Below, piece by piece: positions 1,588 to 20,752 of a DNA stretch of 22,339 nucleotides; the first letter of the stretch is position 1; the number at the start of each line of letters is the position of its first letter. The DNA comes from a virus. Made by a program: the position numbers and the translations under genes. The notes under the pieces are model-generated. The model had not been told where the DNA came from and made no database searches. It saw only the letters and a program-made list of their open reading frames with translations. The DNA lies in IMG/VR virus record IMGVR_UViG_3300033143_002878, positions 1-22,339 of that record; one strand, written 5' to 3'.

Positions 1588-2385
1588 ATGGCATTTCCTA
1601 ACATAAGAATACCGAACATTCCGAAAATACCATCTATCCACGATATTGGTAAAGGTAGCACTGAGGAAGATATAGGTAACGGTCGTGTGGTCGATAGAGA
1701 TATTGGTATTGACAGAATGGTTGCGAAACTGTCTCAAGACCCTATTCTATCACCCGCTCAATATATAGTTCAGATTACACCACCTGATAAGGTAGTCGGT
1801 AATCCACATTACAATGACCTCAAGATTGACGCTAATCTTTTTCTATCTGTATCATCAATCAATCTACCAACTCGTTCATATGCGACAGTTGAGCATGCTC
1901 ACTGGGGTCCGAACATCATGGTTCCTTACCAAGAGGTCTATGACCAAGTTACAATGATGTTTTATATGTCCGAATCAATGAATGAGAGACGATTCTTTGA
2001 TATATGGCTCGATGCAGTGGGGTCAAGAGAGTATGATAGTTCATCAGATGGTGAATACAACAACAAAATGGAGTATTATAACAATTTCATAGGGCAATGC
2101 GTACTATTTCCGCTATCCAGAGATGGTAGACGCCTCAGAAAATACAAAATACACAACTTATACCCAACTCAAATGAGTCCGTCTCTATGGGGTCATGCTA
2201 TGGCTAATGCCTATAGTGAGATTACAATACAGTTTGGTATAGATAGGTATGAGCAGGACAAGAGTTTCGTCCCTGATTCAGAGCCTGTAACAAGCTTATT
2301 CAGTAAACTATATAATATTGGTGCCAGTCTTGCGGATATTCCCGGTGATTTGGTACCGTCGATTAACCCTTTTGGTGGTCGATAA
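1588..2385 (+). CDS. Tail-tube-fold protein, likely baseplate tail-tube initiator (gp54/gp19-like)
   Basis: This 265-residue protein has a strong ribosome-binding site (AAGGAG, 6-nt spacing). The first 60 residues are low in complexity (IRIPNIPKIPSI). From about residue 70 it shows the phage tail-tube pattern: ANLFLSVSSINLPTRSYAT, then VPYQEVYDQVTMMFYMSESM, then RRFFDIWLDAVG, and near the end a LYPTQMSPSLWGHAMANAYS segment followed by SEITIQFGIDRYEQ. That arrangement is shared by the T4 tube protein gp19 and by gp48/gp54, which start tube polymerisation on the baseplate. The extra N- and C-terminal tails, the length (T4 gp54 is of similar order) and the position next to gp48-like and gp26-like genes favour gp54 over the major tube protein. 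A tube subunit remains possible. Confidence 0.6.
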   Translation: MAFPNIRIPNIPKIPSIHDIGKGSTEEDIGNGRVVDRDIGIDRMVAKLSQDPILSPAQYIVQITPPDKVVGNPHYNDLKIDANLFLSVSSINLPTRSYATVEHAHWGPNIMVPYQEVYDQVTMMFYMSESMNERRFFDIWLDAVGSREYDSSSDGEYNNKMEYYNNFIGQCVLFPLSRDGRRLRKYKIHNLYPTQMSPSLWGHAMANAYSEITIQFGIDRYEQDKSFVPDSEPVTSLFSKLYNIGASLADIPGDLVPSINPFGGR

Positions 2386-2411: not shown

Positions 2412-3134
2412 ATGTCATTACCAGTATTGAAGTCGGCAATTTACACCATGGTTATCCCTTCAAGTAAAGAAGAGATTAAATTTAGACCCTTTACAGTAAA
2501 GGAAGAGAACGCGTTATTGATTGCAAGAGAAGCGGATGACGCAACAGTACAATTGAATACTATGGTTGAAGTACTCAAAACCTGCACTTTTGACAAAGTT
2601 GATGTAGGTAGGCTTGCAACATTCGACATTGAGTACATGTTTATCAATATCAGAGCCAAATCTGTAGGTGAGGTTGTTGATATTAACATGAAATGCAAGA
2701 ATTCTAATGCAGAAGGTGTTAAATGTGGTGGTATTGTGCCTTTTAGTATCAATCTCACCGATATAGACGTTGTATTTGACGACAATCATAGCAATACAGT
2801 GATGGTCGAGGACCAGATAGGTATCACATTCAAATATCCTAACATCGAATCGTTCAATAGAACTAAAGACACTGTAGAGAAAAATCCAATACAAGCCATC
2901 GTTGTATTAGTAGAGTCTATATTCGATAAGGACGGCACATATGAGGCTAGCTCATATAGTGATGAAGATTTACTAACATTTATAGAAAGTATCCCTTCCA
3001 AGCCATTTAAGGAGATTCAGGACAAGTTTGTTAATTCAATGCCTAGCCTGAAAGTCTCGTTGCCGTACAAGTGTACTAAATGTGGCAAAGAGGGAGTTCA
3101 TGAATTCAAGGGTCTACAAGATTTTTTCGTCTAA
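2412..3134 (+). CDS. 26: gp26-like baseplate/tail assembly protein
   Basis: This 240-residue protein is preceded by AGAGGAAATT. Its N-terminal half (IPSSKEEIKFRPFTVKEENA, then LATFDIEYMFINIRAKSVGE) is the signature I recall for the T4 gp26 family of baseplate proteins. It carries two cysteine pairs: C90 and C98 in CKNSNAEGVKC, and a C-terminal CTKC at about residues 221-224, perhaps a zinc ribbon. In T4, gp26 acts in forming the central hub of the baseplate. Here it sits immediately before a tape-measure-like gene, as the tail-assembly chaperone does in lambda-like phages. Its last codons GAT TTT TTC GTC TAA contain a canonical -1 slippery heptamer, so a longer fusion product is predicted (see 3128-3301). 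Confidence 0.8.
   Translation: MSLPVLKSAIYTMVIPSSKEEIKFRPFTVKEENALLIAREADDATVQLNTMVEVLKTCTFDKVDVGRLATFDIEYMFINIRAKSVGEVVDINMKCKNSNAEGVKCGGIVPFSINLTDIDVVFDDNHSNTVMVEDQIGITFKYPNIESFNRTKDTVEKNPIQAIVVLVESIFDKDGTYEASSYSDEDLLTFIESIPSKPFKEIQDKFVNSMPSLKVSLPYKCTKCGKEGVHEFKGLQDFFV
3122..3128 (+). promoter_or_regulatory. -1 ribosomal frameshift slippery site T_TTT_TTC
   Basis: In the frame of the gp26-like gene the codons read GAT TTT TTC GTC TAA, which is the canonical X_XXY_YYZ heptamer U_UUU_UUC, two codons before the stop. Slipping back one base re-reads TTT TTT and continues with CGT. The -1 frame is open to 3301, and a potential stem begins 6 nt after the heptamer (3135). Site, distance to the stop and spacer all match the known architecture of programmed -1 sites. 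Confidence 0.75.
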
Positions 3135-3301
3135 CCCTCTCTCATGAAGTCCTATCTAATCGGTATCGGATGAATTTCTTGCTAGTATATGACCATCCAT
3201 ACACGATGTCAGATATTGATAATATGTTGCCGTGGGAGAGGGAAATTTTAATAGCAATGGTCGAGAAAAAGATGACCGATAAGGCTAATGCTCAACAATA
3301 A
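3128..3301 (+). CDS. -1 frame extension of the gp26-like protein (predicted 296-residue fusion)
   Basis: After the slip at 3122-3128 the -1 frame gives 57 further codons, beginning RLTLSHEVLSNRYRM, continuing NFLLVYDHPYTMSDIDNMLP and then WEREILIAMVEKKM, and ending ...NAQQ. The fusion would have 239 + 57 = 296 residues. The 'Y.m.di..MlpwER...i.m.ekk' pattern resembles the C-terminal partner of tail-assembly chaperones, which typically has a short helical 'D-hydrophobic-D-x-M-P-x-x-E' segment. An alternative is independent initiation at ATG 3170 (43 residues), but no ribosome-binding site precedes it, and the frame is open upstream all the way to the slippery site. The stop lies 11 bases before the start of the tape-measure-like gene, as expected for a G/GT-type arrangement. 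Confidence 0.7.
   Translation, partial: RLTLSHEVLSNRYRMNFLLVYDHPYTMSDIDNMLPWEREILIAMVEKKMTDKANAQQ
3135..3242 (+). promoter_or_regulatory. Candidate long-range stimulatory stem for frameshifting
   Basis: CCCTCTCTCATG (3135-3146) can pair with CGTGGGAGAGGG (3231-3242). This gives 12 consecutive pairs including two G-U pairs, the outer seven being perfect Watson-Crick. The loop is 84 nt and lies wholly inside the -1 reading frame. The 5' arm starts right after the 0-frame stop, 6 nt from the slippery heptamer. Pairing was found by eye; whether it out-competes local folding was not computed. Confidence 0.55.
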
Positions 3302-11037: not shown

Positions 11038-14000
11038 TCATTGTATTGTCAGGGTGAACAATTTCTGTTCCTCTCGCCTATCGAACTCGGCATCAACTTC
11101 TTCTCTAATATATTCAGTCTGTACTTCTTGTCTGGTGAATACATATCTGATTTCCGGTATGTTACCATACGCTTCTATCAAACACTCATATGTCGCAATT
11201 ACCAGAGCCTGTGGTGCATTACAGAAGATGAAGTAATTTTCATCATATGCTACAGTTGCCTGATTTTCAACAATGATGAGCGCTTGTGGTGCATTTGTGA
11301 TAATCTCTAAAGGAGTTCCGAATGAAACTTTATATGTCGCAACTACAAGATTATCAGGTGCACCGGTCACTACCGTTGTTTCACGATTGACCTGTGATGT
11401 CAATCCATCAATTACAAGGGTGTCAACATTGGTTGTCAGAGTAGTATTAAATACTACAACTGATTGATATGTTGTGATATCAAGAGCATCCGTATCAGCG
11501 ACAACATATACATCATTCTGAAGTTGTGCCACCCACTCAGTAATGACAAGTGCGTGAGTATCAGCATTTACACCGGTGTCGAATTTGATATCCGAGGCAT
11601 AAGAGGCAATTACTAAAGTGTCGCGGCTCGCACTTACTAACTTATTTAAATTGGGGTCTGCCGGATAGGTCGCTATGGTGAGTGGCCTATAGTCCGGAAT
11701 CAGACTAATTTCTGCATTAATATTTGGTGTCTGTTCTGCAACTACCAACCCATCAGGTGTAGTAGCAACCGTTGTATGAGTTGTCAGATTGACTTCAAGT
11801 GGAGAAATCAATAATACAGCAGTACTAGCAAAAACTTCCCTGTTACCTGTCAAGACTGCAGTCTTACCAGAAATTACCAGAGTATCAACACCGGCATTAA
11901 CTACGGCATCAAATGTCAGGGTGACATCATATGTAGCGATTACAAGAGTATCAGTTCCTGCATCGGTTATCTGATTCAGATTGATTGTTGCTGTCAATCC
12001 ATCAACTACCAGAGCATCAGTGGTTGTATCAACCGTACTGTTCAGATTGATATCAGCAGTCTTTCCATCAATCAGTAGAGCATCAGGAGAATTCGTTGTA
12101 ATGTCAATTCCAGCACTCAGACCCACAGTCTTCCCTGTGATTACCAGAGCATGTGGTGCATTGGTAGACAATTCCACATCAAATGTCAATGTAACGTCAT
12201 ATGTTACAATTGACAGAGCATCGGTTCCAGCCTCTACCGTTACAGAACCACCGATATCAGGAGCGTATGTAGCAATCGTAAGAGCATGAGTTCCGGCACT
12301 TACCAATTTGTTCAGATTTGGGTCTGCGTCATATTCTTGTATTACAAGAGCTTTCGACCCCACCTGTACATTAGTATCTTCCTTGGTTACAGCAGTCTTG
12401 CCCGATATCACTAATGCTTGAGGTGTTCCGGTCACTATCGTTGTTTCACGATTGACTGTTGCTGTCTTGCCTGATATTAATAATGCCTGAGTTTCAGCAT
12501 TTATCGTTACATTACCACCAATATCCGCAGTCTTTCCACTAACCACCATTGCGACTGATGTGGTATAAACATTATCATCATGAGAAGTAGTGGCTTGGAT
12601 TCCAAGAACTGCTAATTCCTGATAACCGGCATTTACATTGATATCATAAGCTATACGATACGGAGCGTATGTAGTGATTTCCAGAGCATCAGGAGCATTC
12701 GTTGTGATACTGATTTCTGCATTGACTGTCGCTGTCTTTCCTGCAATTACTAGAGCATCAGGAGCATTCGTTGTGATACTGATTTCTGCATTGACTGTTG
12801 CTGTCTGTCCTGCGACTACCAGAGCATGAGGTGCGGTCGTAATAACTTGAGCGTTACGGGTAATCGTAATATCATATGTTGCGATATCAAGAGCATGAGT
12901 TCCTGCCAGTACATTGATATCTTCGACTATTTCAGCAGTCTTTCCTACAACATCAAGAGCACCGGTTTCTACCAGTACATTGATATCTTCGACTATTTCA
13001 GCAGTCTTTCCTACAACTACCAGAGCATCAGGTGCATTCGTTACAATCTCGACCCCAGCACTTAAATCCGCTGTCTTACCAGATATTACCAGTGCACCGG
13101 TATCAGGATTGATTACTGCGTCAAATGTTAGGGTAACGTCATAGGTGGCAATTACCAACGCGTCGGTATCGGGGTTGATTACTGCATCAAATTTAATAGT
13201 GGCATCATATGTCGCAATTACTAATGCCTGAGTTGTTGCATCAACAACCTTATCCAGATTCGGGTCAGCGTCATATGTGGCAACTATTAATGCCTGAGGT
13301 GCATTCGTTGTGATACTGATAGGTGCAAGATTCGCATCGACTGGATATTCAACAAGGTCCAGAGTATCAATTCCATCAGCGTATATATGGGCAGAAGCGG
13401 TTAGACTTGACTGACGTCCTTGAATTATCAGTTCATCATATCCTGCCAGTACATTGATATCTTCGACTATTTCAGCAGTCTTGCCTGAAATGATTAATGC
13501 TTGAGGTGTACCAGAATCAACAACCTTATCCAGATTCGGGTCAGCGTCCTGTCCTACAATTACCAGTGCGTCAGGAGAACCGGTTGTAACATGAACTTCA
13601 GCATTGACAGTCGCTGTCTTGCCTGATATTACTAGTGCCTGAGTTGTTGCATCAACAATAGTATCTGCCTTGAGTAATGCAGTTTCTCCAGAAATTACAA
13701 GAACACCAGTTTCTGCTAGTATATTGGCTTCGGCATTGATTGTAGCAGGATACCACCACCAACCAAGATTAATTTCATCATCATCAATATCATCAATTGT
13801 GACATGTGATTGAATAGCGTTGGGATGTACTTCGTCAAATATTACTGTCGAATTAGATATCGCTTCATTATATACAGTAGAAGTGATTGCATCGGTGGAA
13901 ATGGTAATTTTAGTATCTTTAATACCTTTAGTATAACCACCACCAGTAGCATATGTATTTGAGTTGTTAATAACAATCTCGTCAAATGTTACTGGACTAT

Positions 14001-17000
14001 CAAATACGATAATTAACCGTTGTTCAATTTTTATCAGTGCCGACTGCCACTCTGTACCAAGATTAGACCCGATTTTACTCAATGATGTATCAAACGCCTT
14101 GGCTGCGTCAAGAATGGCCACCATCGATGAAGTTGCATATGCCGTAGCATTCTGCCCCACGCCTTCCGTGTCAATAGGTATCAATGTGCCGTTATTCTTA
14201 AACTCTATACTTCTGACGGCCATTGAAGAATTACCGTAATTATCGGCTATATCAAAAATTACGGATTTAACACCGCTGAATTCGGGTCTTGAATATCCTG
14301 AATACAGTGCTATATGAGTAGTGTATACATTCTTATCCAGATTCGGGTCAGCATCCAGACCAGCAACTATCAGAGCCTGAGGTGTTCCCGTTGTAATCGA
14401 TATTTCAGCATTGACTGTTGCTGTCTGTCCTGCAATGACCAGAGTATCAACATTAGCCGCTACATCAATATTTTGAGTTAATGTAACATCTCCAGTTGCA
14501 ATAACTAGGGCGTCAGGAGCATTCGTTACTATATTCAACTCGGCGTTGATATCAGCCTGATATTTCGCAATGTTCAGCGCCTGATATCCCGCAAGCTTGA
14601 TAGCCTCTACTTTAATAGTGACTGTCTGTCCTGCAATGACTAGGGCATCAGGAGAATTAGTTGTTAATGATATATCAGCCTTGATTGTCGCATCATATGT
14701 AGCGACTACCAGAGCATCTGGTGCATTAGTGTATACATTAACCGAAGCATCAGCAGACGCCTGATAATGTGCAATAACAAGGGCATGAGTACTGGCTTCT
14801 ACATTTCTGTCATATTCGACATCAGCTGTATATTCAACAAGGTCCAATGCATCAGTAGAGCAATCAACTACCTTATCCAGATTCGGGTCTGCTTGATTAG
14901 TAACTAGGTCAAGAGCCTCAAAACCTGCTAACACATTGATATCATACTCAATATTTGCTTGATTGGTAACTATATCTAGAGCGGCAAAATCGGCATCGAT
15001 GACTATATCAGCTTTGGCTGTCGCATCATGTCCAGTAATTACCAGAGCATCGGGAGCGTTGGTAGTAACCGATGTTTCAGCGTTGATATTGGCTACAGAA
15101 GCAATTCCACTACTTGTGCCGCCAACTAATGCTAGAATATCATCATCAATTTCGTTAAGACCGATATGTTCATTAACTTCACTATCAAATACTAAAGTGC
15201 TATTTGCAATAGATTCATCATAGACGGTTGAACTAATTGCATCTGTCGAGGTGTAAATCTTGGTATTTCTAACACCTGCAGTTGTGGTACCACCGCCATT
15301 ATGATAATTGTTTATGACTATTGCATCAAATTCGGTCAGGGCATCAAAAACACAAATAATTCTTTGATTTACTTTATCTGTGGCTATCCAAGAACCTACA
15401 GAACCACCGTCTATCTTATGTGGGTATGTTGTATCAAAGGCGACTTCAGCGGAATATGATGGATTGAGGGCGGAAGTTTCGTAAAATGAGGCATTGGCTA
15501 TGGAGGTGGTAATAACTTCACCATCCTTCATGAACTCAACTGTCCTCAATCCCATATTGCCGGCGTCACCCCAATTATCAGTGAAATCTAAAATTACTGA
15601 TTTAACTCCACTATATACCTGACCCTCTAGTATAAGAGCATCCGTTCCAACAGTAACAACCTTATCTAGATTCGGGTCAGCGTCATACGTTGCAACGACA
15701 AGAGCATCAGGAGCATTCGTTGTGATTGCCACCGGCGCCATATTGCCGTCTGCGGCGTATGTAACGATATCAAGGGTATCAGTAACCGCATCAATATCGA
15801 CCCCGAGATTGATAGTCGCATCATATGTAGCGATTACCAGAGCATCAGGTGTACCAGTGGTCAGACTGATGTCGGCATTTACTGTAGCTACAGAAGCCAC
15901 ACCGGAACCGACGCTACCAGTAGCGCCTGTTAATGCTATCGTCTGGTCATCGGCAGTATTAGCCGCTATATGTTCCGCAAATGTGGAATCAAATATTAAC
16001 GTACTATTGGCTATCGCTTCATCATATACAGTAGAAGTGATTGCATCAGTAGATACATGAATTTTTACATTTTCTGCACCACGCAAACGACTGAAGCCGT
16101 TCTGGTGAGCGTTGTTAACTTGTATTTCATCAAAACTAGTAGGTGAATTAAATACACAAATTATACGTTGATTAGTAGTAGTACCAAAAGCGGCGTACCA
16201 TCCAGAAAATTGCATTGAGTCAATTTTACTTGTACTGGTATCAAATGCCAGAGCGGCTCGATATTGTGTACTAAATTGACTAGTATAGTAGAAAGAACCA
16301 AGTGTTTCATTGTTGGTTATTTTACTACCACCACTAAAGAAGTCAATCTGCCTTATTCCGACCCAATCAGCATCACCGAGATTGTCGGCAATATCAATAA
16401 TTACAGATTTTACATTGGAATATTCTGGTATTCCTTGAAGTACAAGTTCATCAGTTATTGCGTCCAGAGTAACATTCAGATTGACGTCGGCATCATATGT
16501 AGCGACTGCCAGAGCATCAGGAGCATTCGTTGTGATGTTCAGACCGGCATTGATTGTCGCTCTCGAAGCACTTGATATGAAAATGACATCAAAATCATCA
16601 ACCTGATTAGCCGCTATATGCTCGTCTATAGCTCCATCAAATATCAGATTAGAATTGGCTATCGCTTCATCATATACAGTAGAAGTGATATCATCCGGTG
16701 CAGTGTAAATCTTGGTATTGTTTATACCACGGTCCGTTTCACCACCAAGACCATTATGGGAGTTGTTGATTACTATTCCGGTAAAGAATATCGGCTCATC
16801 AAATACGATTATTAAGCGTTGATTTGAAGCTCCACCATCACCAGATATCCATTCTCTATCAGTATAAGCTCCTATTTGAGATAGGGAAGTGTCAAATGCG
16901 TTTTTAGAATGAAAATCAATTCCGGCTTGTGTAGTAGTTGCATAAGAGGTTGCATTCGGCGTTACATGTAAATCAATATCAATGACTACTGAATCACCAT

Positions 17001-18882
17001 CAAGGAACTCAATACTTCTTACACCAGTATTCGATATATTACCCCAGTTATCGGCAACATCAAATATTACAGATTTGGCTGTGAAACCATCAGGACCGGA
17101 TATGAAACGCTCATTAGTACTAGCGTTTATAATCGCATCAAATGTCAGGGTAACGTCATATGTGGCAACTACCAGAGCATCAGGAGCATTGGTGACTACA
17201 TATATGTCATTTTCAAGGGTAGCCTGATTCTCTGTTAATGTCAATGCTTTGGTATTAGGATTGACCCCTACATCAAATGTCAGGGTAACTGCCTGTCCTG
17301 CAACTACCAGAGCATCGGGTGCATTAGTTGTCAGACCATAGGCGGCGTTGATAGTCGCTGTCTTACCTGATATTACTAGTGCGTCAGTATCAGCAAGAAC
17401 TTCTACATCTTCTAATCGTGCGGTTGCCTGATATGTTACAATGTCCAGAGCACCGGTTATCGAGTCTACATTGATATCATATTCAATCTGTGATTGATAT
17501 GTTACAATGTCCAGAGCACCGGTTGTTGCATCGACACCGACATCATATTTTACTGTAGCACTAAGTTGAATATCAATCGCTACATCTTGGTCATCTGCAC
17601 CATTGATTCCAGCTTGCTGGGCTACTATTCCATCAAATATTTCAGTACCATTTGTAATGGCCGCTTCAAACACGGTATTACTATAATCTTCAAGAGTATG
17701 TGTAATAACCGTACTCTTGATACCAGTATCAGTTGCAACTCCACTATTATGAGAGTTGTTGATTACTATTCTATTGAAATCAACTTCTGCATCAAATACA
17801 ATAATTAATCGATTAGGTAGGTGGGTGCTACCGTTTCCAGATATCCAAGCAACTCCGTATCCCGGTTCAGGACCGGATTTTGATTCACCGGTAATGAAAG
17901 CATGTTCTACTTCACCTAGTACGGCCACCCAGTCACGCGTGGCATAGAAACTCGCATTTGCGTTACTAATTGTAACCAAATCATCATTCAGATAGAACTC
18001 AATTGAACGAACCGCAATATAAGATACACCACCATGGCTATCGGCAATATCGAAAACGACTGATTTCGCCCTAACAATGTCTATCAGTAATTCATCCGTT
18101 CCGGCATCAAGAGTAACATTCAGATTGACATCAGCATTACTAGAACTATCGATGATTAATGCGTCAGGAATATTAGTTGTCAGATTCAGCTCAGCATTGA
18201 CGGTTGCCTGATATTCATTAATGATTAATGCGTCAGGAATATTAGCATTTATATTCGTTCCGGCATTTACCGTTGCTTGATTTTCAGTAAGAACCAGAGC
18301 AACGACAGCATTGACGTCAAGAGTAACATTCAGATTGACATCAGCCTGAGTTGTACTAATCAGTAATGCGTCAGGAGCATTAGTCGTAAGATTGTATTCG
18401 GCATTTATAGTGGCTGTTTGTTCAGATAGGGATAATGCGTGAGGTGCGTCGGTCGTGATAGAAATTCCAAGACCAATTTGTGCGGAGTTTGTTGCGAGGG
18501 TTAAAGCGGCTGCAAGTTGCAGAACCTCGACATCAAACTCTTGAGTGGCCGCGTATACCGCTATAGCCAGAGTATCGGTATCGGTTTCTATATGGAAATG
18601 TTGGGCGACATCAGTGATATAGTACGCTATCGCAAGAGTATCTAGATTCGCTTGTACATTGACATCAAATATAATTTCGGCAGTATTGGCAGTGATTACT
18701 AATGCGTGTGTATTGCAACCAATCTTGGTTGACGCATTGACAGTAGCTGTTTCTCCGGTTAAAGCTAAAGCATCAGGTGAGTTGGTAATTACCTCAACAT
18801 CAACATTACCTGACGTTTCGGAATCATGAGCCTTCCAATTCGCCGCGGATATATTACTATCTCTTGTATACCAATTAGCCAT
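11038..18882 (-). CDS. Giant repetitive adhesin/fibre-like protein (2614 residues) with five discoidin-like domains
   Basis: The protein begins MANWYTRDSNISAANWKAHD, without a signal peptide. Most of it consists of 22-23 residue units of the form 'TTNAPDALVIAGKTATVNAEISI' with varying sides; roughly 70-75 units by length. Five larger domains interrupt them at about residues 270-437, 594-769, 814-985, 1082-1256 and 1532-1707. Each reads like '..KSVIFDIADNxG....VRSIEF', an 'AFDTS..kI' part, a Trp segment, 'QRLIIVFD.P..F..IVINN' and 'T.VYdEAI.NS..IFD'. This is close to the F5/8 type C (discoidin) carbohydrate-binding pattern. From about 1707 to 2570 only the short repeats remain, followed by about 40 charged residues (VFTRQEVQTEYIREEVD). 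Host-surface binding by the virion is inferred; the short repeats could form a beta-solenoid shaft. It follows the fibre paralogues with a 3-base gap. Confidence 0.85.
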   Translation of the reverse strand: MANWYTRDSNISAANWKAHDSETSGNVDVEVITNSPDALALTGETATVNASTKIGCNTHALVITANTAEIIFDVNVQANLDTLAIAYYITDVAQHFHIETDTDTLAIAVYAATQEFDVEVLQLAAALTLATNSAQIGLGISITTDAPHALSLSEQTATINAEYNLTTNAPDALLISTTQADVNLNVTLDVNAVVALVLTENQATVNAGTNINANIPDALIINEYQATVNAELNLTTNIPDALIIDSSSNADVNLNVTLDAGTDELLIDIVRAKSVVFDIADSHGGVSYIAVRSIEFYLNDDLVTISNANASFYATRDWVAVLGEVEHAFITGESKSGPEPGYGVAWISGNGSTHLPNRLIIVFDAEVDFNRIVINNSHNSGVATDTGIKSTVITHTLEDYSNTVFEAAITNGTEIFDGIVAQQAGINGADDQDVAIDIQLSATVKYDVGVDATTGALDIVTYQSQIEYDINVDSITGALDIVTYQATARLEDVEVLADTDALVISGKTATINAAYGLTTNAPDALVVAGQAVTLTFDVGVNPNTKALTLTENQATLENDIYVVTNAPDALVVATYDVTLTFDAIINASTNERFISGPDGFTAKSVIFDVADNWGNISNTGVRSIEFLDGDSVVIDIDLHVTPNATSYATTTQAGIDFHSKNAFDTSLSQIGAYTDREWISGDGGASNQRLIIVFDEPIFFTGIVINNSHNGLGGETDRGINNTKIYTAPDDITSTVYDEAIANSNLIFDGAIDEHIAANQVDDFDVIFISSASRATINAGLNITTNAPDALAVATYDADVNLNVTLDAITDELVLQGIPEYSNVKSVIIDIADNLGDADWVGIRQIDFFSGGSKITNNETLGSFYYTSQFSTQYRAALAFDTSTSKIDSMQFSGWYAAFGTTTNQRIICVFNSPTSFDEIQVNNAHQNGFSRLRGAENVKIHVSTDAITSTVYDEAIANSTLIFDSTFAEHIAANTADDQTIALTGATGSVGSGVASVATVNADISLTTGTPDALVIATYDATINLGVDIDAVTDTLDIVTYAADGNMAPVAITTNAPDALVVATYDADPNLDKVVTVGTDALILEGQVYSGVKSVILDFTDNWGDAGNMGLRTVEFMKDGEVITTSIANASFYETSALNPSYSAEVAFDTTYPHKIDGGSVGSWIATDKVNQRIICVFDALTEFDAIVINNYHNGGGTTTAGVRNTKIYTSTDAISSTVYDESIANSTLVFDSEVNEHIGLNEIDDDILALVGGTSSGIASVANINAETSVTTNAPDALVITGHDATAKADIVIDADFAALDIVTNQANIEYDINVLAGFEALDLVTNQADPNLDKVVDCSTDALDLVEYTADVEYDRNVEASTHALVIAHYQASADASVNVYTNAPDALVVATYDATIKADISLTTNSPDALVIAGQTVTIKVEAIKLAGYQALNIAKYQADINAELNIVTNAPDALVIATGDVTLTQNIDVAANVDTLVIAGQTATVNAEISITTGTPQALIVAGLDADPNLDKNVYTTHIALYSGYSRPEFSGVKSVIFDIADNYGNSSMAVRSIEFKNNGTLIPIDTEGVGQNATAYATSSMVAILDAAKAFDTSLSKIGSNLGTEWQSALIKIEQRLIIVFDSPVTFDEIVINNSNTYATGGGYTKGIKDTKITISTDAITSTVYNEAISNSTVIFDEVHPNAIQSHVTIDDIDDDEINLGWWWYPATINAEANILAETGVLVISGETALLKADTIVDATTQALVISGKTATVNAEVHVTTGSPDALVIVGQDADPNLDKVVDSGTPQALIISGKTAEIVEDINVLAGYDELIIQGRQSSLTASAHIYADGIDTLDLVEYPVDANLAPISITTNAPQALIVATYDADPNLDKVVDATTQALVIATYDATIKFDAVINPDTDALVIATYDVTLTFDAVINPDTGALVISGKTADLSAGVEIVTNAPDALVVVGKTAEIVEDINVLVETGALDVVGKTAEIVEDINVLAGTHALDIATYDITITRNAQVITTAPHALVVAGQTATVNAEISITTNAPDALVIAGKTATVNAEISITTNAPDALEITTYAPYRIAYDINVNAGYQELAVLGIQATTSHDDNVYTTSVAMVVSGKTADIGGNVTINAETQALLISGKTATVNRETTIVTGTPQALVISGKTAVTKEDTNVQVGSKALVIQEYDADPNLNKLVSAGTHALTIATYAPDIGGSVTVEAGTDALSIVTYDVTLTFDVELSTNAPHALVITGKTVGLSAGIDITTNSPDALLIDGKTADINLNSTVDTTTDALVVDGLTATINLNQITDAGTDTLVIATYDVTLTFDAVVNAGVDTLVISGKTAVLTGNREVFASTAVLLISPLEVNLTTHTTVATTPDGLVVAEQTPNINAEISLIPDYRPLTIATYPADPNLNKLVSASRDTLVIASYASDIKFDTGVNADTHALVITEWVAQLQNDVYVVADTDALDITTYQSVVVFNTTLTTNVDTLVIDGLTSQVNRETTVVTGAPDNLVVATYKVSFGTPLEIITNAPQALIIVENQATVAYDENYFIFCNAPQALVIATYECLIEAYGNIPEIRYVFTRQEVQTEYIREEVDAEFDRREEQKLFTLTIQ
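11160..18830 (-). repeat. Coding tandem repeats, 66-69 bp unit
   Basis: The short units of the giant gene are repeats at DNA level too. For example, the plus-strand text agagcatcaggagcattcg starts at 12683 and again at 12752, exactly 69 bp apart, and the next 28 bases or so are also identical. The text acattgatatcttcgac occurs at 12911, 12977 (66 bp apart) and again near 13447. Unit identity varies from near-identical neighbours to strongly diverged copies, and the series is broken by the five longer domains. The frame is kept throughout. Confidence 0.9.
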
Positions 18883-18885
18883 TGA

Positions 18886-19878
18886 TTATGCCGGTGCAAT
18901 TGCCTTCGTTGCCACTGTCTGGTCATCTGTTACGCTTTGACCAGGTGCAAGGACAACATAATAGTTTGGATGTACGACTGCTAGACTTGTAAATGTAAAA
19001 TTGTAGGTCGTTTGGTCAGATATAGCAACCTCTCCAAAATATGAATCATCCGCCGCGTTATAACATTGTAATATCTTTCCATCTGGCACTAGAGTAAGTC
19101 CATCTGCCAGATACAATAACCCTCTAACATATTTAGTAGTTGGCGATTCCACTGTTCCCGAAGCCGTACCTTCTGGCATAGAACTTAGGACACCTGCACC
19201 ATCGCCTACAGGACCGGTTGGAGAGTGTTGAACACTGAAAGTATATGAATCACATTCCTCACTATCAAATTCAAATGTCTTTGTTCCTGTAGCACCGGGC
19301 GATGCGAAAACTTCTTCAATTAGTGCATGAGCCGCTCCAGCTCCATTAGTAGCACCGTAATTTTCATTTACTCGAACTGTTCCAGACGGTAATGCCGTAA
19401 ATGCAGTTCCCGAATCCTTCTTACAACAATGGTAGACTGTTTCATCTGCCACGGTGGTCGTAACACTAGGTGCATCAATCGATGTTCGGTTACCAGTAAG
19501 TTCGGTTTTCGCAAATTGACCCCATACAGCAGGGTCGAATAAAAATAGAACACCCATCTGTTCTTCACTACCACCGAATGTCCATTGATAGGTCTTTGAA
19601 TCAGCATTAGCTTCATCATCAGCAGAAACATCTTTATAGTAAATCCAGACGGCATTAGGTGAAGCCGCACTAGTACCATCAATCGGCATACTGCCAGATT
19701 CGGCTAATGTCCATGTTTCATTAGATGGTGGAGTGGGTGATATATCAGGTGCATTATCAGAGGTCTGTACACAAACCACCATGAAATCGCCTTCAAGGGC
19801 ATCAGCCGGTACAAGCAAATCAGGGTCAAACCCTGTTGAAGTATCTCCGAAACTTTCTTCTTGTGATTTATAAGCCAT
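18886..19878 (-). CDS. Fibre-like structural protein, paralogue of the next gene upstream
   Basis: This 330-residue protein is beta-rich and low in charge. The N-terminal about 210 residues (MAYKSQEESFGDTSTGFDPD...) look like a jelly-roll type module with several Trp and aromatic strands and a CC pair (YHCCKK). A linker GPVGDGAGVLSSMPEGTASG follows. The C-terminal domain of about 90 residues contains YNAADDSYFGEVAISDQTTY and HPNYYVVLAPGQSVTDD and ends TKAIAPA. The same linker and C-terminal domain occur in the neighbour at 19882-20752. Such shared ends usually mark phage fibre or appendage proteins with exchangeable tips. It is closely spaced with its neighbours (3-base gaps), pointing to one operon. 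The exact role is not recognisable. Confidence 0.75.
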   Translation of the reverse strand: MAYKSQEESFGDTSTGFDPDLLVPADALEGDFMVVCVQTSDNAPDISPTPPSNETWTLAESGSMPIDGTSAASPNAVWIYYKDVSADDEANADSKTYQWTFGGSEEQMGVLFLFDPAVWGQFAKTELTGNRTSIDAPSVTTTVADETVYHCCKKDSGTAFTALPSGTVRVNENYGATNGAGAAHALIEEVFASPGATGTKTFEFDSEECDSYTFSVQHSPTGPVGDGAGVLSSMPEGTASGTVESPTTKYVRGLLYLADGLTLVPDGKILQCYNAADDSYFGEVAISDQTTYNFTFTSLAVVHPNYYVVLAPGQSVTDDQTVATKAIAPA

Positions 19879-19881
19879 CTA

Positions 19882-20295
19882 TTACACCGGAGTAATTGAT
19901 TTGGTAACTATTGTGATATCATCTGTCAACCCTTGACCCGGTGGCATGATGATATAGTAATTTGGATGAGTGACCTTAATACTGGTAAAACTGAATGTAT
20001 AGGTCGTTTGGTCAGATATTGTAGTCTCTCCAATGAAAGCGTCATCAGCCGCGTTATATGCACGCACCACAATTCCGTTAGGAATCTTAGTCGACTCATT
20101 CGGATAGTATAGTGGTAGGCTCAACCGTACCACTTGCCGTACCAACAGGCATCGCTCCGAAATCCGCCGCTCCATCGCCTGTAGGGCCGGTTGTCGCCGC
20201 AGTTTCATCGATAATGATTTGTCCTGACATTCCAGAACTTCGTGCACTTGTGCCAATGTACCATCTAGCAGAACCACCAGAAGAAACGATATCAT
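19882..20295 (-). pseudogene. Out-of-frame C-terminal part of the fibre-like protein
   Basis: Only the portion from about 20125 down to 19882 is meaningful. It encodes PLYYPNESTKIPNGIVVRAY, then NAADDAFIGETTISDQTTYT, then HPNYYIIMPPGQGLTDD and ends TKSITPV. This matches the C-terminal domain of the 330-residue paralogue residue for residue in long stretches. It lies in a different frame from the N-terminal portion (20096-20752), needing a +1 shift near 20110-20125. The upstream half of this open frame (20295-20125) only shadows the other reading frame and has no proper start. The two parts are probably one gene broken by a small deletion or a sequence error. Confidence 0.7.
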
Positions 20296-20752
20296 GTCTT
20301 ACTACAAGCCACCCACCAGCTGGGACAGTGACAGTCATTCCCGTCATGCTGATTGTGTAATGACCGGTGGTCGTATGAGTAAGCTGACTATAACCAGTTG
20401 ATGTAGAATCAAGAGAACCGCCCGAAGTGTAAGCTTCAAAATACATTCTCTGTACAGTGCTGTACCGTTGAACTTGTTGTGCACTGACTCCTGTAATAAT
20501 TGTAGCGGCCGGATATGAATGATTGATAGCCGCATACACCCATCCCGGTCCAGTTTGAGAACTGGCATCGAATCTATAATCTGTACCACCACCGCACATT
20601 GCACCAGTACCAGTGTCATAGATATATTGTGCGCCATATCCCGATTCAACGGCACTAGGTAGACCACAAGGGGGAGTGGCATCGGAAGTAGTAAAGCCGG
20701 AGAATACCGTTACGGCATCAACTAGATGAAAATAATAAGTTGCTTGTGCCAT
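20096..20752 (-). CDS. Fibre-like structural protein, N-terminal part, interrupted before its C-terminal domain
   Basis: This 218-residue, Gly/Ser/Thr-rich protein has many short beta-strands (MAQATYYFHLVDAVTVFSGF...) and no charged helix. It ends GPTGDGAADFGAMPVGTASG followed by TVEPTTILSE and a stop. The linker GPTGDGA...MP.GTASGTVE is the same as in the 330-residue neighbour, where about 85 more residues follow. The matching C-terminal domain is present downstream in another frame, so the stop at 20096 looks premature. Compared with the paralogue about seven residues are missing exactly where the frame changes, suggesting a small deletion. The start overlaps the stop of the 113-residue gene by one base (TAATG). 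Confidence 0.75.
   Translation of the reverse strand: MAQATYYFHLVDAVTVFSGFTTSDATPPCGLPSAVESGYGAQYIYDTGTGAMCGGGTDYRFDASSQTGPGWVYAAINHSYPAATIITGVSAQQVQRYSTVQRMYFEAYTSGGSLDSTSTGYSQLTHTTTGHYTISMTGMTVTVPAGGWLVVRHDIVSSGGSARWYIGTSARSSGMSGQIIIDETAATTGPTGDGAADFGAMPVGTASGTVEPTTILSE

Follow-up and report, generated by a model that had tools for sequence, protein, structure and literature searches.

The frameshift that is conserved in the tail genes of dsDNA phages, and which in lambda yields gpG and gpGT, has been described by Xu, Hendrix and Duda (2004) and reviewed in 2016, with T4 named as the exception to G-T frameshifting (PMC5009743). In T4 itself, gp26 and gp51 are listed as hub assembly chaperones in a review of the tail (PMC3004832). 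The T4-type chaperone genes gp26/gp51 are the subject of Vladimirov, Gautam and Davidson (2022; PMID 34826709), as cited by two later papers. The first of these, on PRFect, states in the relevant passage that in some T4-like phages frameshifting is replaced by two copies of the gene, a short one and a long fused one (PMC10885494). The second, on phage Adele, treats poly-T -1 signals as established for the TAC-N genes of T4-like phages, and reports that in Adele (Pakpunavirus/Vandenendeviridae) TAC-N ends in a poly-T site for a -1 shift, with an extension of more than 200 bp (PMC12846349). Judging from these citing passages, such systems are already described, including in T4-type phages, and the locus reported here is a further instance. 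The original prediction, which held that no frameshift had been described in the gp26 family, was therefore out of date in this respect.

Our locus lies in a window, meaning the whole stretch of viral DNA analysed, of 22,339 nucleotides, and its features are collected in Table 1. The gp26-like ORF ends with GAT TTT TTC GTC TAA, and the T_TTT_TTC heptamer that had been predicted for its last codons is indeed found there in frame, although one sense codon (GTC), and not two, separates it from the stop. Also as predicted, 57 codons can be read in the -1 frame without a stop (3128-3298), and the TAA that closes this frame (3299-3301) falls 11 nt before the next gene. An open -1 frame beyond a stop is not rare in itself, as six other genes out of the 23 in the window have one of at least 55 codons, five of them explained by overlap of the next called gene. 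The ORF list holds no ORF of at least 50 aa in the frame of the gp26 extension. An in-frame TTTTTTN, in turn, occurs a single time in the 7043 codons of the called genes of the window, 13 nt from the gene end.

Table 1. Features of the gp26-like locus, given as positions in the window, and of related junctions, given as locus and position.
Feature	Position	Strand	Evidence
Tail tube protein, syntenic upstream neighbour	1588..2385	+	phrog_45 E 1.7e-18
gp26-like gene, short tail-assembly chaperone (TAC-N), 240 aa	2412..3134	+	PF12322, phrog_150, AF2 model
SD-like AAGGG, 9 nt upstream of slip site, candidate stimulator	3108..3112	+	family-wide anti-SD pairing
Slippery heptamer T_TTT_TTC	3122..3128	+	sequence; gp26 frame
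-1 frame extension, gp51-type C-terminal domain, 57 codons + TAA	3128..3301	+	phrog_634, phrog_150 C-terminus
0-frame stop TAA, end of short form	3132..3134	+	ORF list
Probable tape-measure protein, 665 aa	3313..5310	+	position, weak tblastn, hydropathy
gp26 ends with NTT_TTC junction	L168 3301, L186 1992, L187 1968, L188 2559, L169 3094		

With lambda gpG/gpGT, the locus shares a predicted -1 shift close to where the chaperone gene ends, and two predicted forms of the product; in lambda the tape-measure gene comes next, and here a probable one does. The locus differs from lambda in belonging to another family according to sequence profiles, and in that gp26 is larger and has a second domain. 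The lambda slip site also differs from the T_TTT_TTC of the gp26-like gene. The chaperone gene of Adele is similar in that TAC-N ends in a poly-T site for a -1 shift, but this site is an invariant GTTTTT in Pakpunavirus/Vandenendeviridae and T_TTT_TTY in gp26-like genes. The T4-type gp26/gp51 genes, for which poly-T -1 signals are cited as known, belong to the same families and come in short and long forms, and yet T4 itself, unlike the phage of the window, has two separate genes in place of a frameshift.

Profile searches place the short product in the T4 gp26 family, with matches to PF12322 (T4_baseplate; 209.7 bits against a curated cut-off of 24.5, E 5.7e-62, profile positions 3-218 of 219) and to phrog_150 (gp26; E 3.8e-65). 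The search of the extension against known families, which had been proposed with the original prediction, returned gp51 (phrog_634, 'baseplate hub assembly catalyst'; E 1.9e-14, profile positions 58-112 of 121), as well as the C-terminus of phrog_150 (E 2.1e-6). By these matches, therefore, the extension is the known C-terminal part of gp51 and not a new domain.

The reading that we prefer, with a probability of about 94%, is that the gp26-like gene encodes a tail-assembly chaperone in two forms by means of a -1 frameshift. Most ribosomes would stop at 3132 and release the 240-residue short form; a minority would slip back one base on T_TTT_TTC, as tRNA-Phe in both the P and the A site pairs anew with TTT TTT, and would continue into a long form of 296 residues whose C-terminal domain is helical. 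An SD-like element 9-10 nt upstream probably assists the slip. If the analogy with lambda gpG/gpGT holds, the short form may coat the tape-measure protein encoded by the next gene, and the long form may recruit tail-tube subunits, these being the same two products that in T4's own lineage would come from two genes, gp26 and gp51. The sites, their conservation, the logic of the reading frames and the homology to gp51 are shown by the sequences, and the efficiency of the shift, the ratio of the two forms and their roles in assembly are what we infer here.

The gp26 frameshift is very probably real, and it is very widely conserved. A first set of 64 loci, 60 of them complete, was fetched using gp26 peptides whose codons all lie 5' of the slip site, so that the site itself was not selected for. 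In all 60 complete loci the -1 extension is open and follows a poly-T shift site, which is T_TTT_TTN in 54 of them and, in six near-identical copies of one sequence, G_TTT_TTT. Together with isolates and with a search by the extension, which is biased in that one of its patterns spans FFRLTLSH, this set grew to 100 distinct loci. Every one of them has the extension in the -1 frame, preceded by a poly-T slip site: T_TTT_TTC in 70, T_TTT_TTT in 27, T_TTT_TTA in two and G_TTT_TTT in one, so that T_TTT_TTN is found in 99. Among 51 non-redundant extensions, a set which required FF and thus leaves out the single G_TTT_TTT variant, the T6 run is invariant, with no codon position varying, and the variability of the extension at positions 1/2/3 is 0.38/0.22/0.54, which is coding-like in the -1 frame. 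A mixed alignment, A2, was excluded because in it the gp26 C-terminus is misaligned with the extension. Among isolates, the same layout is found in Kyanoviridae, Emdodecavirus, Pootjesviridae, Menderavirus and some Straboviridae, and in phages of Sinorhizobium, Agrobacterium, Rhizobium and Ochrobactrum, Stenotrophomonas phage Ps15 and Vibrio phage D491s.

This conservation of the -1 extension and of the poly-T site is far beyond chance, and the joint loss of heptamer and open -1 frame, named beforehand as counter-evidence, is not what the relatives show. That the heptamer and the open frame coincide by accident, or that a sequencing error has split an in-frame gene, has a probability close to nil: although the gp26 frame of one locus, L110, is broken elsewhere, 100 distinct loci, drawn from many data sets, are arranged in this same way, and isolates are as well. 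L110 had been considered as an 'in-frame' case and was rejected as such, since its gp26 frame is broken and the extension is in the -1 frame relative to the C-terminal piece. The two pieces of this gp26 frame (L110 3526-4195) probably reflect an assembly or sequencing error.

The extension could also be a separate small gene, a stand-alone gp51 with its own or a re-initiating start codon, as it has been annotated. Several records of cyanophages and other phages in the databases have a short gp51 at this place, the annotated starts overlap the gp26 stop in Vibrio phage D491s and Rhizobium phage RL38J1, and an ATG is found near the gp26 stop in three of the 100 loci. However, conservation of the residues starts immediately 3' of the slip site, and before this conserved block ATG is absent in 97 of the 100 loci and any start codon (ATG, GTG or TTG) in 74, the window being without one as well. 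Moreover, in none of the 100 loci is a start accompanied by strong SD pairing, the run of six T's does not vary, and gp51 of the T4 lineage is a fusion with a gp26-type domain. We thus consider a separate gene extremely unlikely, and the stand-alone extension gene with its own ribosome-binding site, which the original prediction had named as evidence against itself, was not encountered among the relatives. In HTVC008M, P-SSM2, phiN3, Milchi and MED4-213, the annotated gp51 starts 3' of the slip site. Such stand-alone annotations most likely represent the -1 part of a gene that is read by frameshifting, and therefore many records of cyanophages and related genomes, in which a short 'gp51' stands beside gp26, need correction.

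We then consider how the shift may be stimulated. In 61 non-redundant loci, anti-SD pairing just 5' of the slip site is -5.53 kcal/mol, versus -4.29 kcal/mol in synonymous shuffles (p 4.5e-6, a statistic that ignores the relatedness of the loci), and none of 13 control offsets gives a comparable gain in the same loci. The typical element of the family is GAGGG or GGAGG, 9-10 nt before the slip. Thus, an SD-like element is probably under synonymous selection and is a candidate stimulator of the slip. No downstream stimulatory RNA structure beyond that of shuffles was found in the window (z -0.21). A related arrangement is known from dnaX of E. coli, where a -1 frameshift on A_AAA_AAG is accompanied by an SD-like stimulator about 10 nt upstream and by a downstream stem-loop. 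The gp26 site resembles it in having the SD-like element about 10 nt 5' of the heptamer, and differs in the heptamer itself and in being without a clear downstream structure. We found no description of such an SD-like stimulator for this family in the literature, as far as Vladimirov et al. (2022) is represented by the papers that cite it.

The SD-like element also bears on transcriptional slippage, in which the long form would arise by RNA polymerase adding one U on the T run. One added base would likewise lead to the -1 frame, and many relatives have a run of eight T's (GATTTTTTTTAG). Nevertheless, the window and most relatives have only six T's, always in the phase X_XXX_YYZ, and an upstream SD-like stimulator makes sense for ribosomes only. 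A T6 run would be too short for efficient transcriptional slippage, which we regard as very unlikely here.

Both gp26 and gp51 of T4 are homologous to the short form, and residues 1-201 of T4 gp51 match full-length PF12322 and are followed, in frame, by the extension. The same two-gene layout is found in Moon, IME08, DLP1, IME13, phiP4-3 and JK32, and gp26 of such phages has neither the extension nor T_TTT_TTY (GAG TTC TTT in T4). By sequence, then, T4 and several Straboviridae lineages are predicted to make the same pair from two genes, namely, gp26 as the short form and gp51 as the long fusion. Two other phages classed as Straboviridae, Aeromonas phage ZPAH1 and Cronobacter phage S13, are laid out for a frameshift, and their extension is not annotated. 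Ackermannviridae phages Vi01, phiDP10.3, Bue1 and Kevin, together with Vibrio phage D494, have a homologous -1 extension (hmmsearch E-values of 1e-9 to 4e-3). Their junctions are NTT_TTC (A_ATT_TTC, G_ATT_TTC, G_GTT_TTC and A_CTT_TTC) in place of T_TTT_TTY, and therefore a non-canonical shift site is likely in these phages.

We lean towards a scenario where T4-type chaperones widely rely on frameshifting, with the aid of a conserved SD element like that of dnaX, and where gene duplication took the place of the frameshift in the T4 branch of Straboviridae, gp26 losing the extension and the poly-T run and gp51 keeping the fusion. Under this scenario ZPAH1 and S13 would still frameshift, and Ackermannviridae would keep the extension with a non-canonical NTT_TTC. 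Many T4-type phages, using a frameshift, and T4, using two genes, would offer a natural comparison of two ways to set the ratio of chaperone forms. In Citrobacter phage Moon, the joined gp27-gp28 (L160 60-1698, minus strand) is annotated as 'GT-like fusion protein'; the real chaperone pair of this phage appears to be gp26 and gp51.

To compare the gp26-like protein with known folds, we used an AF2 model (pLDDT 94.3). A sequence search of the PDB gave no relative, and Foldseek with this model gave no match in the PDB. VIA-align matched residues 1-85 of the model to the HK97 tail assembly chaperone (2OB9) with a Z of 7.6 and an rmsd of 4.1 over 83 residues, the next best match having a Z of 2.9. 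This is suggestive of an HK97 chaperone fold of the modelled N-terminal domain, although a Z below 8 is in the chance range and not safe alone. Since the fusion spans two frames, gp51 of a T4-like contig was modelled as a stand-in for it (pLDDT 88.4). The order of its elements is similar to that of the gp26 model, and its helices at 196-248 correspond to the extension; the tail assembly chaperone was not among the matches listed by VIA-align for this model, which is no evidence of its absence. The idea that gp26 corresponds in T4-type phages to the G chaperone, and its fusion to gpGT, is supported by the conservation, the lack of an independent start, the gene order, the suggestive fold match and the in-frame fusion in T4 gp51.

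Regarding the gene order, in most of the loci surveyed a long ORF lies directly 3' of the extension, and 80% of the complete next ORFs have at least 400 aa. The product of the corresponding ORF in the window has a weak tblastn match to the 'tail length tape measure' of Vibrio phage YC (E 7e-3), and a hydrophobic segment near residues 356-390 according to hydropathy. Based on position and this weak similarity, it is a probable tape-measure protein.

Elsewhere in the window, a head-closure (gp4-like) protein (542-997) has a strong match to a TnsA-like endonuclease (PF08722, E 8.2e-20). On the minus strand, a single ORF of 2614 residues (11038-18882) consists of repeats of about 30 residues, such as 'TNAPDALVIATYDADPNLDKV', and has several larger repeated domains as well; it is probably a giant tail fibre or adhesin. 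Also on the minus strand, by eye, a fibre-like gene seems to be split over two frames (19882-20752), as the ORF at 20096-20752 ends with GTVEPTTILSE and the continuation, AYNAADDAFIGETTISDQTTY..., is found in another frame, in the ORF at 19882-20295. This seems to be a broken gene or a sequence error, and the same continuation is intact in the neighbouring paralogue at 18886-19878.
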